A stretch of DNA of 64,000 nt. Origin: Firmicutes bacterium HGW-Firmicutes-15 (GTDB lineage Bacteria > Bacillota > Syntrophomonadia > Syntrophomonadales > Syntrophomonadaceae). Both the position numbers and the translations under genes were made by a program. The notes under the pieces were generated by a model. It was not told the origin of the DNA, did not search any database, and saw only the letters and a program-made list of their open reading frames with translations. Shown here piece by piece: positions 8,938-51,605 of the stretch. Location of the stretch: the NCBI GenBank assembly GCA_002840245.1, contig PHAA01000007.1, positions 62,001 to 126,000 of the forward strand. The letters are read 5' to 3'. Positions within the stretch are counted from its first letter, which is position 1. Each line of letters opens with the position of its first letter.

Positions 8938-9858
8938 TCAAAGTTCACTTCTTTGAGATATTCCCAGAATCTTAATGGCTTTCTCCAGTTCCTGCCGATC
9001 GTTCAAAACTTCTTGAAACAAATCCCCCACCTTCTTTAATCGTTCCAGCACAGTTCGAATCGTAAAATCTCCAGGTCGTATTGATTCTAGCTCCTGCCAC
9101 CCTATAGGGGTCGAGACAGTGGCACCATCACGAGGCCGAACGCTGTAGGGTGCACAAATGGTTTTACCCAGCCCGTTCTGAAGGTAGTCGACGTAGATCC
9201 GCTTCCCTCTATGCTGCAACGATCTTTGTATGGTGGCGATATCTGGAACTACATTACAAATCAGTTGGGCAATCATCTGTGCAAAGCTGCGAACCTGGCT
9301 GTAGGAATAGCGGGGTACAATAGGAAGATAGATATGCAGACCTTTTGAACCTGATGTTTTCAGATATACGTCGAGACCGAGTTTGCCCATTAGGTCTTTT
9401 AGAAGACGGGCAACACTAACGATCTCTTCAAAAGTATTTTGTTCGGAGGGATCAAGGTCAAAGACAATATAATCTGGATTTTCGATTGTAAATGTTTGCG
9501 ACATCCAGGGATGAATCTCAATACAGGCCTGATTGGCCAGCCATATCAGGTCAGCCTGGGCTTCAACCAAAACATAATGTTTTATCCCTTTACTCCCCGC
9601 CCAGGCAAAAGTCCGGATCCATTCCGGCAGGTATTGGGGGGCATTCTTTTGATAGAAGGAGGCTTCCTTGATGCCATTGGGATAGCGGGTAAACACTAAC
9701 GGACGCTGCCTGAGGTGAGGGCTAATAAACGAAAAAACAGCGCCATAGTATTCCACCAGATCATGTTTTGTGTAGCCTTGTTCGGGCCACAGAATTCGAT
9801 CAAGATTCGTGAGCTGTATTTCTCTTCCTTCAATTGCTATCGTTGTTGAACCCGTCAT
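8938..9858 (-). CDS. ligD: LigD-type primase-polymerase (PolDom)
   Basis: A 306-residue archaeo-eukaryotic-primase-type polymerase matching the polymerase domain of LigD. The two metal-binding aspartates are seen in VFDLDPS near residue 142; SGSKGLHIY and RIYVDYLQN are the other conserved blocks. It fills gaps, often with ribonucleotides, during end joining. It is a free-standing domain, with the ligase domain encoded by the gene 19 bases upstream. A GGAAGTGAGG stretch precedes the ATG. It is last in the ku-ligase-polymerase operon. Confidence 0.92.
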   Translation of the reverse strand: MTGSTTIAIEGREIQLTNLDRILWPEQGYTKHDLVEYYGAVFSFISPHLRQRPLVFTRYPNGIKEASFYQKNAPQYLPEWIRTFAWAGSKGIKHYVLVEAQADLIWLANQACIEIHPWMSQTFTIENPDYIVFDLDPSEQNTFEEIVSVARLLKDLMGKLGLDVYLKTSGSKGLHIYLPIVPRYSYSQVRSFAQMIAQLICNVVPDIATIQRSLQHRGKRIYVDYLQNGLGKTICAPYSVRPRDGATVSTPIGWQELESIRPGDFTIRTVLERLKKVGDLFQEVLNDRQELEKAIKILGISQRSEL

Positions 9859-9877
9859 GCCTCACTTCCTTTCTCCG

Positions 9878-10816
9878 TCAAACACTGCAGTCTGAATCCA
9901 TTACATTTATAAATGCTTTTATCACCGGAAATCGCAAATGAAGGGATTCAGTCCACTCTAAAAACTCTACCAGTACAGCCATTCGAGGTTCTATATAATG
10001 ATGATTTCGCTGAGACCGCTCGTCAAAGGGTGACGTACCGACTTCCAATGCAGGCAGTTCCTCGGAAAGCATTTTTAGATGTTCAGAGCTGAGACCGTTG
10101 GCCGCTTTCCCTGCAAAGTTCAGCTTCCCTTCTCTGACTACGCCCAGCAGAAGAGCATTCACTTGATTAGCTCTCAGGGTATAGCCACCTACAAGGCAAT
10201 TTTGCGTTTGGAGGCATTTTATTTTATACCAATCGCTATGGTTCTTGCCAGGGCTGTACAAGCTGGTTTTTCTTTTGGCAACAATCCCTTCTATGCCAGC
10301 ACTTCGGACCGCTTCAAACAGGGTTGTTCCCTCGGAAAAGCTTTCAACCTGATGAAGGTATTCCTGATTATCAAACAGCTCAGTCATTTTGAAGATACGT
10401 TCCATCAGGCTTTGCTGTCTTAAATCTCTTCCATTCAAAAACAACAGGTCAAATACCATGTAGGAAATTGGCAGAGTTTTACTTGCATGCTTAATACTCA
10501 TAGCAGTGCTTGAACGATCTCTTTGCATTACACCTGGAAAACTGGGTTTTCCCTTCCGCAACACAACAATTTCGCCGTCTAATACCGCGTTTTTCACCCC
10601 AAGTAGTCCTGCCAGACTTTGTAGTTCCGGATACTGCTCGGTCCGGTGGTTTCCTCGTTTGTTTCTCAAGTATACCGTTTCTCCGGAAATAGCTGCGATG
10701 ATCCGAACTCCATCCCATTTCACCTGATAGAGAAAGTCTTCGCTGTCAAAGGCATTCTCGCGAATGATTGGGTCCATGGTTTTGATATCTGTTAAGAACG
10801 TTTTAATATCTAGCAT
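9878..10816 (-). CDS. ligD: ATP-dependent DNA ligase, LigD ligase domain
   Basis: A 312-residue ATP-dependent DNA ligase. The adenylated lysine is Lys33 in VKWDG; the later nucleotidyltransferase motifs are visible as LDGEIVV, EGIVAKRK and WYKIKC, and an OB fold follows to the C terminus. It seals breaks held by Ku. Its ATG at 10816 directly abuts the TAG of ku (TAGATG), which implies translational coupling. Unlike many LigD proteins it carries neither polymerase nor 3'-phosphoesterase domain; the polymerase is the next gene. Confidence 0.93.
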   Translation of the reverse strand: MLDIKTFLTDIKTMDPIIRENAFDSEDFLYQVKWDGVRIIAAISGETVYLRNKRGNHRTEQYPELQSLAGLLGVKNAVLDGEIVVLRKGKPSFPGVMQRDRSSTAMSIKHASKTLPISYMVFDLLFLNGRDLRQQSLMERIFKMTELFDNQEYLHQVESFSEGTTLFEAVRSAGIEGIVAKRKTSLYSPGKNHSDWYKIKCLQTQNCLVGGYTLRANQVNALLLGVVREGKLNFAGKAANGLSSEHLKMLSEELPALEVGTSPFDERSQRNHHYIEPRMAVLVEFLEWTESLHLRFPVIKAFINVMDSDCSV

Positions 10817-11650
10817 CTAGCTTCCGGTTTTGGCCCGTTTCCCCTGGCCGCTCTTTTTCTTCTTTGGATCAACCTTATTCGCCTCTGACAGCTTAACACT
10901 GGCTTTGAGTGCTTCCATCAAGTCAACAACTTTACCACCCTGCGGCTGTGGGGTAGGTGTCACGATTTCCTGTCCAGCGATTTTAGCTTCAATCATTTCC
11001 CACAAAGCTTTACGATAATCATCCTCGTATCGTGCAGGATCAAAATCGATGGAGAGATTCTCGATTAGACTTACTGCCATTTTGATTTCGTTCTCATGCA
11101 GCTTCTCTATCCCAATTCCCTTGCCAAGTTCAGCAGGCGAGCGAATTTCATCAGGATAGAAAATGGTCTCCAAAATGAGGTGATCATCCTTTACTCGCAA
11201 TGCGGCCAGGGATTGCTTGGATCGAATCATGATTTTTGCGATCGCAATTTTCCCTGTTGTTTTCATGGCTTCTGTGATCAGGCTGTAAGCCTTGTCTCCT
11301 CCAGGAGAAGGTGCCAAGTAATAGCTTTTGTCAAAATATACCGGATCAACCTGTTCCAGTTTAACGAAGTCTAATATGTCAATGGTCTTGGTATTTTCCT
11401 GGGGAATCCGCGCTAAATCTTCTTCATTAATAATTACGTAATTACCCCTCTGAATTTCATAGCCTTTGACGATATCTTCTGGCTTGATCTCTTTACTGCA
11501 TTTCGAGCAGACCTTTTGATAGTTTATCGGGGCCATGCATTCCTGATGCAGGTAATGGAACTTGAGATCTTTATTCTCGGTAGCTACATACATGCTCACC
11601 GGGATATTTACCAGGCCAAAACTCACTGCACCTTTCCAAAGTGTTTTCAA
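10817..11650 (-). CDS. ku: Ku-type DNA end-binding protein
   Basis: A 277-residue bacterial Ku homodimer subunit, normal length for the family. It starts KTLWKGAVSFGLVNIPV, the signature Ku N terminus, and ends in a lysine-rich tail that in other bacteria helps DNA threading and ligase recruitment. It binds double-strand ends and recruits the ligase and polymerase encoded downstream. The start is a TTG at 11650 behind AAAGGAG. It heads the NHEJ operon. Such operons are frequent in spore-formers, but I see no clear sporulation promoter. Confidence 0.95.
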   Translation of the reverse strand: MKTLWKGAVSFGLVNIPVSMYVATENKDLKFHYLHQECMAPINYQKVCSKCSKEIKPEDIVKGYEIQRGNYVIINEEDLARIPQENTKTIDILDFVKLEQVDPVYFDKSYYLAPSPGGDKAYSLITEAMKTTGKIAIAKIMIRSKQSLAALRVKDDHLILETIFYPDEIRSPAELGKGIGIEKLHENEIKMAVSLIENLSIDFDPARYEDDYRKALWEMIEAKIAGQEIVTPTPQPQGGKVVDLMEALKASVKLSEANKVDPKKKKSGQGKRAKTGS

Positions 11651-40057: not shown

Positions 40058-41449
40058 ATGCAGAAAAACGGACTATCAGCTTTTCAACTCACTATGCTTG
40101 CCCTGGGCACTGTCGTTGGTGGCTCATTTTTTCTTGGCTCAGCTATCGCTATTAAGGCTGCCGGACCTTCCATTATTATAGGTTTTATAGTAGGTGGTAT
40201 AATGGTGTATTTTATACTCAGTGCCCTATCAGAAATGACGGTCGCGAATCCCGATTCTGGTTCTTTTCGAACCTATGCTGCGGAAGCCTATGGACCTTGT
40301 ATGGGATTTTTAGTAGGCTGGGTGTATTGGACTGGTCTGGTACTGGCCATGTCCAGTGAAGCTACAGCCGCTTCGTTTTTTATTGAATCGTGGTTTCCCT
40401 ATCTATCGTTGCCTCTATTATCAATTGGTATAGTAATTGCCATAACTCTATTAAATTTATTGGGAGCTAGTTTGGTAACCCGATTAGAAAGCACTCTGGC
40501 TAGCGTAAAATTGCTCGCCATTCTGGCCTTCATAGTACTTGCCGTAGTTCTGGTATTCGGTTTTTTGCCAGCCAGAACTCCAATTGGCTTGGGGGCAGTT
40601 CGAAATGCCGTCTTTTTTCCAAATGGTATTGGCGGGCTGGCAGGCAGTATGTTAATCGTAATATTTAGCTATGCCGGTTTTGAAATTATTGGTTTAGCAG
40701 CTTCTGAAGCCCGAGACCCGCAGAAAACTATACCCCAGGCCATAAAAGCAACGGTCATCTCTCTGGTTGTATTGTACATTTCCGTCATTTCTTTGATGTT
40801 GCCACTTATCTCTACCCAAAGTCTATTACCCAAGATCAGCCCAATGGTGTCAGCCTTGAATTTTCGAGGATTAGGAGTAGCTGCCGGATTAGTGAACTTT
40901 GTATTGGTAACAGCTATCCTATCTACAATGCTGGCAGCTACCTTTGGCCTAGGCAGAATGCTTCGCTCTCTCGCGGATAGTGGAGATGCACCAGGTTTTT
41001 TAATTGACCGGGGCGATGTGCCTCTACGAGGTATTATATTTTCCGGTATCGCTATGTTGCTTTGTGTAAGCATGTCGTACGTGCTGCCTAACAGCATTTA
41101 TATTTTTCTGCTTAGTTCCGGAGGATTTTCTCTGCTTTTGGCTTATCTGGTAATCATGTTAACCCATCTGAAATTCCGTAAACGTTGTGGCTGTCCGCCT
41201 CAGGGACACTGTCAGTTAAATGGTTTTCCTTATACCACCTGGACTGCCGTCATTAGCTTGATAATCGTAATTGTAACCATGCCCTTGATCCCCGGGCAAG
41301 GTGCGGGTCTGTTTGCTGGCCTATTGCTGCTCGGTGTCTATACTCTGTTCTATTATATATTCCGTTTATCTCCCCTCCGTACGGTGCCTGCAGCAAAACC
41401 AATGCAAAATGAAGGGAATCAGGAGAATCCAAGCTCAGACGGGCAATGA
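40058..41449 (+). CDS. APC-family amino acid permease
   Basis: A 463-residue integral membrane protein with about 12 helices. The N-terminal [19 protein letters not shown] matches the helix-1 substrate motif of APC amino acid transporters, and [20 protein letters not shown] is the family's conserved helix-6/loop block. The substrate is not predictable. ATG at 40058 follows GGAGG. Its last 31 bases overlap the end of the convergent AAA+ gene. Confidence 0.9.
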
Positions 41450-44205
41450 AAATTCTTATATCGTATTTCACCACATATTTCTTCAATCTCAATACTCAAT
41501 GAATCTACTTTATAGTTATTTGCCCGTATATGACAAATTGGCTTATTGATTTTTTCAGCCCTATCCACAATATGGGCTGTAACCGAGCTATCCTGATGAT
41601 CATTACCGTCCCAGACCACGATTAAGATGTCACTGTGCTCGGCTATAAAATAACCAGCTTTAAGATAGGCTAACTTTCGCGTTGGGGAGGGAGGCATTTC
41701 AATTATTTCTAGAGCCCTTTGCGACAACCAATATATTAATTCTTGTCGCAGTTCAGCCCCCTGACTGTCAATCCTATAGTCATTAGATGGACCAAAATCA
41801 TTTATATATTCGTTCTGAGGAACCGGCAATACAGCAATCAGTCGTGAAGTCTCCCTTTTCAGTAGTTGACGAGCAACTAGACGATCAGCACCTGCCGCCA
41901 GTGGCGAGAAAACCGTAAGATAATGTTTCGAGTACTTCTGTTCAATAAACTTGATTACTTCATTAACTGCCTGCTCTAATTTATCTATTTGTTTGGGATC
42001 TAAATTGGTATGTCCTGTAATTCCAATCCTAAGCATTTCCCGGTGTCCCATATAGGTTAAAGCATTAAATTCTTTTACATTTACGTGCATCTCAATAATA
42101 TTATCCGGGGGTAGACTTGATAATTCGTATTTTCGTTTATCAGCAAGACTACTCATTTTAATCAGGTTCTCCATAGAGCGTGCACCATGATAATATTTTG
42201 TCACCCGTAAAAAAGCGTCCAGGACACCTGCCTCTATTTCAAATTGATCATTTGTCCTAATTTGAGGTGCATTTGTTTCAAGGTATTGTCTTAGAATAAA
42301 TGCCCTGCGGATCATGTAAAGTCTATCTTCTACAGTATTAGGGTTGCCATTAATACCTCTAATGTTTATATAAGCACGCAGGCGACTTATAAAATCAGGC
42401 TTTTTAGCAGTTCGATCCTCTAGATTGTTGCCAGTTTGAAACTCTTCAAATGAATGTCTGGTCGCACCAGCAAAGACGTAGATCCCCCCCCCTAGAGGAT
42501 GGGATGTTCCCTTATCGGTAAATTCACCATCCTGCATAGGCGCTAAAAAATTCCGTAACCATCCTAATGGACGACTTTCACACGGGTTATCAAATTCATC
42601 CCAAAACACAAGTGGCATTTTGCCTTTAAGATTCAGGTCGCGAATCTGATGAAAAGCGGTTTGCAGTTCATCGGCAGATTCGAATTGAGATAGGTTAAAG
42701 GTGAGTTGAGCATCTTCGCCAATTCCGAGTCCTTTGGCAATTTCCTTGACCACAAATGATTTTCCCGATCCAGGAGGGCCAAATACAGCCACACAGAGAG
42801 GGGTCTCGGGATTTTTCAGCTCCAGGTAATCCTTCATGGCATTGTTTACGCTTCGAACCCCTTCAATTTCCTGCCGATCTGCACTGGACCAGGCACCAAT
42901 CGTTTCGACCGGAACATCTGGCAATGCTGCCAGTGGTCCTTTAACCACAGTATTCCTGGCACATTCGTTTACTGCTCTCTGGGGATCTTGCAAAACATCA
43001 TTATTTATCTGATTTTTCAACAATTTTTCTTCTAGAATTGTCCAATGATCCTTATCCTCTTTATTGATCAACTCATCATTTCCCGAACTAAAGCATCCTA
43101 GGTCACCAATTTGTTTATATAGGATATTTTCCGTGCTATCTTCTAATGATCTAATCTCACTATACGAATTAGCTATAGCTTTAGTAGGAAACTGCAGATA
43201 TTTATGATCATCTTGCTCCACCACTTCATACCCTTCTACGTGGAGTTTGCGAGCCAATTTAACACCTATAAAGGTAGCTTCAATCCAATTAACTCGTTCT
43301 GGGTCTTCAGCCCAGGCAGTCGCAAGAGCACCTAATAAACAGGCATGGTAGCCCATCATTTGACCGGGGAACTGACTGGCAAAGTCTCCTTCCTGACCGC
43401 TGCGGTCGAAAATTATGGTGCACTTATCTTTCTCAACGATTACAGCACCACTGGCACCAATGGTCACAATTACTTGTTTATACTTCATGGTTTTTCCCTG
43501 TTGGTCAACAAATGGACACTTCGAACTTAGCACCGCAGCAACGACTTCCTCCAACATTCTTTCCCATGATAATGATATACCTATCTTTACAGCGCAGGAT
43601 CGCAAGTCGCTTAAAGTAGTTACTATTGTAGTTCTATGGGCTAAACCTAACTCTATTATCCTGTCAAGTAGAGGATTCTCCTTGCTATCGTTATATTGAC
43701 CTAGCTTGAGTATAATATCGTGCGGAAGGTTATCTCTGGAAAGAGCCGATAAAACCTCAGGCCATCCCTCTTTACAATTCCGAAAACCCAGGCCACTATC
43801 CTGAATCACTAATAAATCAGGGTTCCCATAAAGCTTGGCAGAAGGGTAATCCCAGAATCCCGGCTCAAATTCATGCCATTTTTCTAAGCGAAATGAACTG
43901 TACTGAAATCCTGGATTAACGTATTCCTTCCATACTGTCCAAGAAGTTGTTATCCGGTTATCTTTTGGACGGTTTAGCAGTTCCTCATCGAGCATTGCTC
44001 CCTCAACCCTGGCTTTTTCGGCAGATATCATTTCATTTAACAACTGAAGAACCATGGCGGAACCGCCTGGCTTTGAACTTAGTCGAACCTTGAAATCTTC
44101 CTTTTGTTGTTTCCAGTAATATACCCCGCCCCTTACTATGATATCTTCGTTATGAATTCTAAACCAATCTACAGTTGGATCGCCACACATTTGTATGAGG
44201 TTCAT
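41419..44205 (-). CDS. PfkB-like / AAA+ ATPase / SLOG-like fusion protein
   Basis: A 928-residue soluble protein of three parts. Residues 1-345 resemble a PfkB/ribokinase-fold sugar kinase (GGSA at 48-50, LLVIQDSGLGF at 131-141, VTIGASGAVIVE at 247-258), though catalytic residues are not clearly conserved. Residues 440-700 are an AAA+ module: Walker A GPPGSGKS 476-483, Walker B LVFWDEFD 532-539, sensor 1 FAGAT near 580, Arg-rich SRLRAY near 607, sensor 2 GARS near 675. Residues 722-895 are a Rossmann domain like SLOG/YpsA nucleotide sensors (IGITGHTNL, FSPLAAGADRLVA, DILIVVWDG). GGGGG precedes the ATG. A sensing or defence ATPase is inferred; no partner gene is evident. Confidence 0.85.
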   Translation of the reverse strand: MNLIQMCGDPTVDWFRIHNEDIIVRGGVYYWKQQKEDFKVRLSSKPGGSAMVLQLLNEMISAEKARVEGAMLDEELLNRPKDNRITTSWTVWKEYVNPGFQYSSFRLEKWHEFEPGFWDYPSAKLYGNPDLLVIQDSGLGFRNCKEGWPEVLSALSRDNLPHDIILKLGQYNDSKENPLLDRIIELGLAHRTTIVTTLSDLRSCAVKIGISLSWERMLEEVVAAVLSSKCPFVDQQGKTMKYKQVIVTIGASGAVIVEKDKCTIIFDRSGQEGDFASQFPGQMMGYHACLLGALATAWAEDPERVNWIEATFIGVKLARKLHVEGYEVVEQDDHKYLQFPTKAIANSYSEIRSLEDSTENILYKQIGDLGCFSSGNDELINKEDKDHWTILEEKLLKNQINNDVLQDPQRAVNECARNTVVKGPLAALPDVPVETIGAWSSADRQEIEGVRSVNNAMKDYLELKNPETPLCVAVFGPPGSGKSFVVKEIAKGLGIGEDAQLTFNLSQFESADELQTAFHQIRDLNLKGKMPLVFWDEFDNPCESRPLGWLRNFLAPMQDGEFTDKGTSHPLGGGIYVFAGATRHSFEEFQTGNNLEDRTAKKPDFISRLRAYINIRGINGNPNTVEDRLYMIRRAFILRQYLETNAPQIRTNDQFEIEAGVLDAFLRVTKYYHGARSMENLIKMSSLADKRKYELSSLPPDNIIEMHVNVKEFNALTYMGHREMLRIGITGHTNLDPKQIDKLEQAVNEVIKFIEQKYSKHYLTVFSPLAAGADRLVARQLLKRETSRLIAVLPVPQNEYINDFGPSNDYRIDSQGAELRQELIYWLSQRALEIIEMPPSPTRKLAYLKAGYFIAEHSDILIVVWDGNDHQDSSVTAHIVDRAEKINKPICHIRANNYKVDSLSIEIEEICGEIRYKNFHCPSELGFS

Positions 44206-44546
44206 TTATTTTGCCCCCTTTTAAAAGTTGTGAAAAAACGAAACCCCTGTTGATTTGGAACTTACTTTGTTCCCCAACAAGGATCTAGTATCGTGAATGC
44301 CCCGTTACCATATGCTTACTATTCTAAACTAGATTTGCCTGTATTGATACTAGACTGAGGTAATTATTAGGGGAATTTCCTATCATCCGAAAATTGGGTG
44401 AAGCCTTTTTATACAACAAATATCATGTATTTAATAGCTAAAAAGAATATCTTTCACTTTAGTGCCATTAACTGGAACCCTCAATAACGCCAAATGAATA
44501 CTATGTAAGGAAGCAAAGCAACACATTATTAAAGGAGGATGATTAT
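44206..44546. other. Divergent intergenic region
   Basis: A 340-base A+T-rich stretch between the fusion-protein gene and the lactonase-type gene. It must hold both promoters. I see no gene, clear hairpin or repeat. Confidence 0.55.
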
Positions 44547-50546: not shown

Positions 50547-51521
50547 CTACAAAAAAAGCGTATATACCAGTTTTTGTTCTTCTTGTATCCTCAGCACTTT
50601 ATGACGCTTTACCAGGTAGTCCAGGTGGGCGATGGCTTCTCCGGTGGCAAACCATTTTTGAAAACTGGGAAAGTCATCCCAAGAATCATAGGTCATGTCC
50701 CAATGCATTAGACTAGCAACCTGATAAGCGCTCATAGTTCCTTCTGTGAGGATGTACAGAATCTCCTGCAGCCTATTAGCATGATGATGCTTTAACTCGG
50801 CTATTCTTTCGTGATGGTCATGGATTATTTCCCTATGTCCTGGCAAAACAATGCGGATATCCATATCGTCAATTTTGTCGAGACTAGCCAAGTAATCTCC
50901 CAGAGAGTCATCCACTCCGTCCCAGTGGGTGATATTGGAGGTAATGTGGGCTAGAATGTGGTCACCAGATATAAAAAATTTGTGCTCAGGCTCATATAAA
51001 CACATGTGCCCTGGTGAGTGCCCGGGGGTAGCGGTACACACTAGATGATAGCTGCCGACTTCAATTATATCAGCATCCTGCACATAGGTGAAATCCATAT
51101 CGCTGCCAGAGATAAAGTTCGTAATGGTCTCCCCCTGGTTGCTTATCATTGCTTTGGGGAAGCCGTTTAAGGTAAAACAACCATTAACTTTCATCCAGTA
51201 GTCAGCAGTCATACAAGCACGCATTATGTCTGCGTCCACTCTACTGCAGTATACAGCTGAATCTTTAGTTGCCAGGGTATAGACTAAACCAGAATGGTCG
51301 CCATGCACGTGAGTAATAAAAAAATCCACCTCTGACCAATTCAGTCCCAAATCTGCAATTCCCTTCAGTTGTGCTTTGAGGCATTCCGGCCAGTTAAATC
51401 CAGTATCTATGAGAAGGCTTCTGTGCCTTCCTTTTATTAAATAGGAGTTTAAGGTTTTCAGAGGATTCCCCGGCAGGGGGATTTGTAATAGATAAATACA
51501 AGGTAATATCTCCTCAATCAT
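50547..51521 (-). CDS. MBL-fold metallo-hydrolase, glyoxalase II/LACTB2-like
   Basis: A 324-residue hydrolase. The metal site THVHGDH lies near residue 92, with later ligands in TPGHSPGH (about 188) and SGDHIL (about 210), and VLPGHRE. The C-terminal 75 residues resemble the winged-helix tail of LACTB2-like proteins. The substrate is unknown. The ATG at 51521 lies behind AGGAAG. A single minus-strand gene. Confidence 0.85.
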   Translation of the reverse strand: MIEEILPCIYLLQIPLPGNPLKTLNSYLIKGRHRSLLIDTGFNWPECLKAQLKGIADLGLNWSEVDFFITHVHGDHSGLVYTLATKDSAVYCSRVDADIMRACMTADYWMKVNGCFTLNGFPKAMISNQGETITNFISGSDMDFTYVQDADIIEVGSYHLVCTATPGHSPGHMCLYEPEHKFFISGDHILAHITSNITHWDGVDDSLGDYLASLDKIDDMDIRIVLPGHREIIHDHHERIAELKHHHANRLQEILYILTEGTMSAYQVASLMHWDMTYDSWDDFPSFQKWFATGEAIAHLDYLVKRHKVLRIQEEQKLVYTLFL

Positions 51522-51605
51522 AAATCATACACTTCCTAAAATATTTAAATAATTATATATAATATTTTTTAATGCCTATGGTTGATTAGAATATTTTAGC
51601 TAAGC

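Follow-up and report, generated by a model that had tools for sequence, protein, structure and literature searches.

SLOG-SLATT systems, the subject of Burroughs et al. 2015, are reportedly nucleotide-centric conflict systems. SLOG domains of the YpsA clade include sensors of cyclic ADP-ribose (cADPR), and members of another SLOG family, LOG, are nucleosidases (PMC9503650). RyR domains bind or cleave 2'/3'cADPR according to a preprint whose data come from phage counter-defense proteins (PMC13232231), and a second preprint presents DUF4062 as the TIR-like NADase (NAD, nicotinamide adenine dinucleotide) of the Swarozyc defense system (PMC13174449). Here we analyze a gene on the minus strand (positions 41419-44205) of a 64,000-nucleotide stretch of contig PHAA01000007.1 from Firmicutes bacterium HGW-Firmicutes-15, hereafter the window; all of its features are given on that strand. 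Its product joins a ribokinase/PfkB-fold domain, an AAA+ module and a SLOG domain in one chain, and the evidence points to a stripped-down, single-gene descendant of an undescribed nucleotide-signaled conflict system, an ancestral state that we infer. No sequence match spanning this architecture was obtained in Pfam, NCBIfam, PADLOC, PHROGs or the PDB: PHROGs and NCBIfam gave generic P-loop matches alone, and the sole PADLOC model to match the protein, mad8 (25 residues, E = 0.007), covered nothing beyond the P-loop. The literature searched, which did not extend to Burroughs et al. 2015, where an earlier mention is possible, gave no description either; within that scope, a first-pass annotation of this DNA was right to call the architecture undescribed.

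The open reading frame (ORF) encodes 928 residues from an ATG start, the single chain that the first-pass annotation had drawn. Homologues were collected by scanning genome contigs, mostly metagenome bins whose flanking gene calls are mechanical ORFs, with two peptide patterns; the best 80 matches were kept and gave 75 loci. Homologues with 60-79% identity share the start residue and are colinear over their full length. Compared with the nearest homologue, the ratio of nonsynonymous to synonymous substitution rates (dN/dS) is ~0.04 for the AAA part, ~0.09 for SLOG and ~0.12 for PfkB, values that are rough at a dS above 1 and near saturation, and all three domains are under purifying selection. 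Because the start is shared, the ATG is preceded by a Shine-Dalgarno-like AAGGGGGC (44213-44220) and dN/dS is far below 1 everywhere, 41419-44205 is a real gene. The AAA part is the best conserved, with 84-89% identity to four homologues from the crown clade described below, and the variable linker at residues 346-410 (42976-43170) has the lowest identity and the highest dN.

The proposed three-part division was borne out, by Pfam for the central module and by structure models searched with Foldseek for the two outer domains, which Pfam sequence profiles missed. The AAA+ module with its lid (residues 411-717; 42055-42975) matches the Pfam AAA profile PF00004 at 27.7 bits against a curated cut-off of 21.2. 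Walker A (GPPGSGKS, residues 476-483; 42757-42780) and Walker B (LVFWDEFD, residues 532-539; 42589-42612; VFWDEFD also served as a homologue-search pattern) lie exactly where they had been annotated. R608, a candidate arginine finger in PDFISRL (42382-42384), and R676, a candidate sensor 2 in GAR (42178-42180), are assigned their roles by motif position. All four elements are intact and invariant across the aligned homologues, and the AAA+ module is complete.

At the N terminus (residues 1-345; 43171-44205), the AlphaFold model of residues 1-348 has a predicted local distance difference test (pLDDT) score of 93.4, and the first 50 PDB matches listed by Foldseek all belong to the ribokinase family (best E = 1.9e-9), in agreement with the sugar-kinase-like fold suggested earlier. 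The template modeling (TM) scores, normalized by query length, are 0.40-0.51, and the domain is therefore a divergent member of that fold; no viral fold match was found for the model. It was the structure search that settled the fold: PF00294 (PfkB) had no match in the protein by hmmscan at E values up to 10, hhalign against a two-sequence PfkB profile gave no useful match, and no PDB relative could be assigned reliably to either outer domain by sequence profiles. Matches to RecA fusions in the profile search were taken as chance, no stretch passing by itself. On the substrate side, and with roles given by homology, D13 (44167-44169) is invariant wherever aligned and G47-G48 (44062-44067) are conserved. 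The likely slot of the catalytic Asp of the GAGD motif falls at G285-Y286 (43348-43353); placed by motif and by the start of a helix in the model, without residue-level superposition, it holds Y286 here, Y in 53 of 74 homologues and D in three. Because the catalytic Asp is absent while D13 and G47-G48 are kept, the PfkB part is probably a pseudokinase, for which a sensor role is likelier than kinase activity; this amends the first-pass annotation.

The C-terminal domain (residues 722-928; 41422-42042) had been described as a SLOG-like Rossmann domain, a view that a failure to match SLOG/YpsA folds would have overturned; the fold comparison upheld it. In the AlphaFold model of residues 718-928 (pLDDT 90.5), the best Foldseek match is Bacillus subtilis YpsA (2nx2, E = 2.4e-7), followed by DprA (1.6e-5) and, more weakly, by the ThsA SLOG domain (probability 0.98, E = 4.5e-3), LOG and TRPM. 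On the strength of the model, this part is a divergent SLOG-fold domain with putative nucleotide binding. Its glycine motif, GITGH (GxxGH, residues 728-732; 42010-42024), has both glycines invariant over 39 SLOG sequences. By sequence comparison, SSVT at residues 873-876 (41578-41589) replaces the GGT loop, which is expected to contact ligand phosphates and is retained by 17 of the 18 unfused SLOG genes; SLOG domains of the crown clade carry SxT-type loops in its place, with the exception of the basal locus L026. Two Peptococcaceae proteins show further degeneration of the glycine and WDG motifs (L024 3706-4311 and L029 12146-12751).

Beyond the SLOG-fused proteins lies a wider family, with 31-38% identity, in Chloroflexota, Thermomicrobiota, Acidobacteriota, Planctomycetota, Actinomycetota, Thermodesulfobacteriota and one archaeon. 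Most of its members carry two RyR repeats at the C-terminal end (PF02026 E values of 1e-19 to 1e-26 in the three tested), with the EHxxW ligand motif kept in 34 of 36 full RyR tails, and a smaller subset consists of the PfkB-AAA core alone; PF02026 has no match in the window protein by Pfam. A separate SLOG gene flanks 20 of the 48 wide-family loci, and at 17 it follows directly downstream of the core gene, in the same orientation and at a median distance of 5 nt. TrkA_N-type genes are present at 14 of the 48 loci; most encode RyR repeats together with an apparently membrane-spanning N-terminal stretch, for which reason we call the TrkA-RyR protein channel-like. TIR genes occur at 13 of the 48, and other loci have DUF4062 or STAND-WD40 proteins. 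Among 92 neighbors, Pfam matches number 13 for TIR_2, 10 for TrkA_N, seven for RyR and four for DUF4062. In locus L085 the order is core-RyR, SLOG, TrkA-RyR and TIR, with gaps of 9, -4 and 49 nt, and in L081 (4157-6388) the SLOG partner carries a fused SLATT domain, a two-transmembrane (2TM) effector, with SLATT_1 above cut-off. By eye, the partner SLOG gene of L067 (12012-13940) is similarly fused to 2TM regions.

Around the 48 wide-family loci (685 kb), we counted 19 TIR genes against 0.44 expected from a density of 27 TIR matches in ~42 Mb of 13 genomes; these genomes were mostly picked for a TIR gene at the locus, and by coordinates about 17 of the 27 matches lie within the studied loci, so the density would err, if at all, on the high side. 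Although wide-family loci served as the seed of the local TIR profile, Pfam TIR_2 likewise matches 13 of the 92 neighbors. Relatives of the window gene sit in conflict-type operons. Two further loci are recorded here as observations: L111, on Methylobacterium plasmid pA, has a homologue that bears the annotation "RyR domain-containing protein" and lies next to helix-turn-helix and transposase genes and a large SIR2 family gene, and L113 (4638-6492), on B. subtilis plasmid pBS72, has consecutive TIR, caspase-family and SLOG genes, the last with 28% identity to the window SLOG domain.

In a tree of the core, from which the broken L034 was omitted, the SLOG-fused proteins form one group (Shimodaira-Hasegawa-like approximate likelihood ratio test support, 99). 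TIR neighbors are found in its deep branches L028 (Acidobacteriaceae) and L030, and in L034 (Acidobacteriaceae). The window gene belongs to the crown group, which is found in Syntrophomonadaceae, Peptococcaceae and relatives. The lack of such partners at crown loci, the varying neighbors and the loss of the GGT loop together mark the window protein as a derived form that stands alone. The gene is present in nine of the 61 genomes searched and in none of six genus-mates (a tenth genome, with a weak AAA-only match, was left out), and comparison of genus-mate contigs for an empty site recovered single flanking genes only. The asparaginyl-tRNA synthetase gene found near the window gene also has its counterpart near the gene in L022, L023 and L025, but in another orientation, and this adjacency was not accepted as synteny.

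The first-pass annotation had raised the possibility of a sensing or defense system in a single, self-contained gene and had asked how often homologues sit in defense islands. The gene does stand alone in the window and at 22 crown loci, but the wide family has RyR, SLOG, TrkA and TIR partners; likewise, conflict-system context, with TIR, RyR and SLATT partners, holds for the wide family and, through TIR genes, for the basal fused members, but not for the 22 crown loci. The window itself contains no convincing defense island. PADLOC matches among its other proteins are mostly to helicase- and protease-type models, with one weak match named TIR (E = 2e-11), and no homologue of the window protein was found in phages or viral contigs. 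Elsewhere in the window (8938-11650), genes resemble, by eye, those for end joining: a LigD-type polymerase, an ATP-dependent DNA ligase and Ku. Elsewhere in the same genome (G000:C37 around 51301-51573; L105 5527-9178, also L106), a separate cluster has an apparent class III nucleotidyl cyclase, a single RyR domain and TIR; this order is repeated in a relative (G024) and is possibly a second nucleotide-signal system.

We propose, with about even confidence, that the window protein works on its own as an AAA+ switch in signal transduction and belongs to a family of conflict modules signaled by nucleotides of the NAD/ADP-ribose (ADPR) type. In such a switch, the N-terminal ribokinase-fold domain would bind, but not phosphorylate, a sugar or nucleoside, and the C-terminal SLOG domain would bind a nucleotide signal or keep the protein off. 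Ligand binding would alter ATP-driven assembly of a putative AAA+ ring, and the ring would in turn act on a target further down the pathway. As part of an operon, the RyR-bearing core would pair with a separately encoded SLOG protein and would probably control the TrkA/RCK-type channel-like protein, while a TIR or DUF4062 enzyme would make an ADPR-derived signal; the window protein would do the switching within one chain, with sensors for small molecules at both ends. The literature on RyR, DUF4062 and SLOG, taken with the operons, favors an ADPR-type signal module that combines an AAA+ hub and a membrane effector. The folds, the loss of the catalytic Asp beside retained D13 and G47-G48, the invariant AAA+ motifs, the single group of fused proteins with TIR genes near its basal members, and the patchy distribution also speak for the proposal.

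Several observations weigh against this proposal. No TIR, RyR, channel or extra SLOG gene lies near any of the 22 crown-clade loci (324 kb), the neighbors of the window gene are ordinary genes that differ from those in relatives, and no partner gene is conserved in the window clade, where neighbors change from genome to genome. Co-occurrence within genomes is weak: RyR genes are found in three and TIR genes in four of the nine gene-bearing genomes (P = 0.04 and 0.02, respectively, uncorrected for kinship), and with RyR in only three of nine we rejected RyR in trans as a needed partner in the gene's own genome. As the GGT loop is gone from SLOG domains of the window clade, the window SLOG may have changed ligand or lost binding, and so may no longer read the ancestral signal. 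The RyR and DUF4062 biochemistry comes from preprints, that on RyR from counter-defense proteins, and any defense role of the window gene in this host would be read from its relatives.

One alternative is a metabolic regulator, in which the PfkB fold would sense a sugar or nucleoside, the AAA+ module would remodel a metabolic enzyme or complex as Rubisco activase does, and SLOG would sense adenine nucleotides, with no conflict role in the host. The PfkB fold with its conserved substrate-side residues, the solitary crown-clade gene among ordinary neighbors, the altered SLOG loop and a weak resemblance in sequence between the AAA core and Rubisco activase (E = 0.016) fit this explanation, but no metabolic neighbor is conserved, presence is patchy to the point of absence from six genus-mates, and both the wide family and the basal fused members are tied to TIR, RyR and SLATT genes; we regard it as rather unlikely. 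If instead the SLOG domain cleaved or made a nucleotide signal, as a nucleosidase-like effector gated by PfkB-AAA, the gene would be a one-gene abortive defense. That would make use of the sensor, switch and possible output domain within a single gene and has a precedent in the nucleosidases of the LOG family; the SLOG fold is nearest YpsA rather than LOG, the GGT loop is lost and the LOG-type PGGxGTxxE motif is not seen in the window SLOG, which leaves this explanation improbable. We consider it highly improbable that the PfkB-type part works as a kinase, with AAA+ and SLOG attached, and produces a phosphorylated signal: the ribokinase fold and the T-x-G-x-x-G-like VTIGASGA motif, retained in most of the window clade, speak for it, but the slot of the missing GAGD Asp holds Y in most homologues and D in three only.

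A bolder extension of the switch proposal, which we hold tentatively and rather doubt, is an undescribed prokaryotic ADPR-signaled ion-channel system, in which TIR or DUF4062 enzymes would make the signal, SLOG and RyR would read it, the pseudo-PfkB AAA+ hub would process it and the TrkA/RCK-RyR channel-like protein would be gated, with the window protein a single-chain relative in which SLOG replaces RyR. If true, such a system would parallel, and perhaps be related to, animal cADPR-RyR signaling. If the switch proposal is true, bacterial NAD/ADP-ribose signaling systems would gain a new hub protein. It would also bring RyR, SLOG and TIR together with a channel-like protein in a single operon, so that the reading by bacterial RyR and SLOG domains of signals like those linked to animal RyR calcium channels and TRPM channels would become testable. 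L085, L049, L040 and L038 are candidate operons for phage-defense and ligand assays.

Among known proteins and systems, the ribokinase/PfkB family shares the fold and substrate-side residues of the N-terminal domain, which differs in the absent GAGD Asp and PF00294 match. SLOG-SLATT conflict systems resemble the L081 locus in the SLOG-SLATT fusion of its partner gene and differ from the family described here in its PfkB-AAA+-RyR hub and TrkA/RCK-RyR protein. Thoeris, which pairs the TIR protein ThsB with ThsA and its SLOG sensor, is alike in the SLOG-fold sensor and in the TIR genes beside wide-family members, where an ADPR-type signal is likely. Unlike many wide-family loci, neither the window nor the 22 crown-clade loci have a TIR gene; the window protein has no Sir2 NADase or other known Thoeris effector, and its SLOG domain shares a chain with an AAA+ motor and a PfkB-fold domain. 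Swarozyc shares the DUF4062 proteins that neighbor several wide-family loci, whereas an AAA+-RyR hub is not among the features described in the available part of its source (PMC13174449). Finally, RyDEP-type RyR-domain proteins (PMC13232231) have in common with the wide family a PF02026 domain with the H-x-x-W ligand motif; they are phage counter-defense proteins, whereas RyR in the wide family is part of a bacterial multidomain hub.

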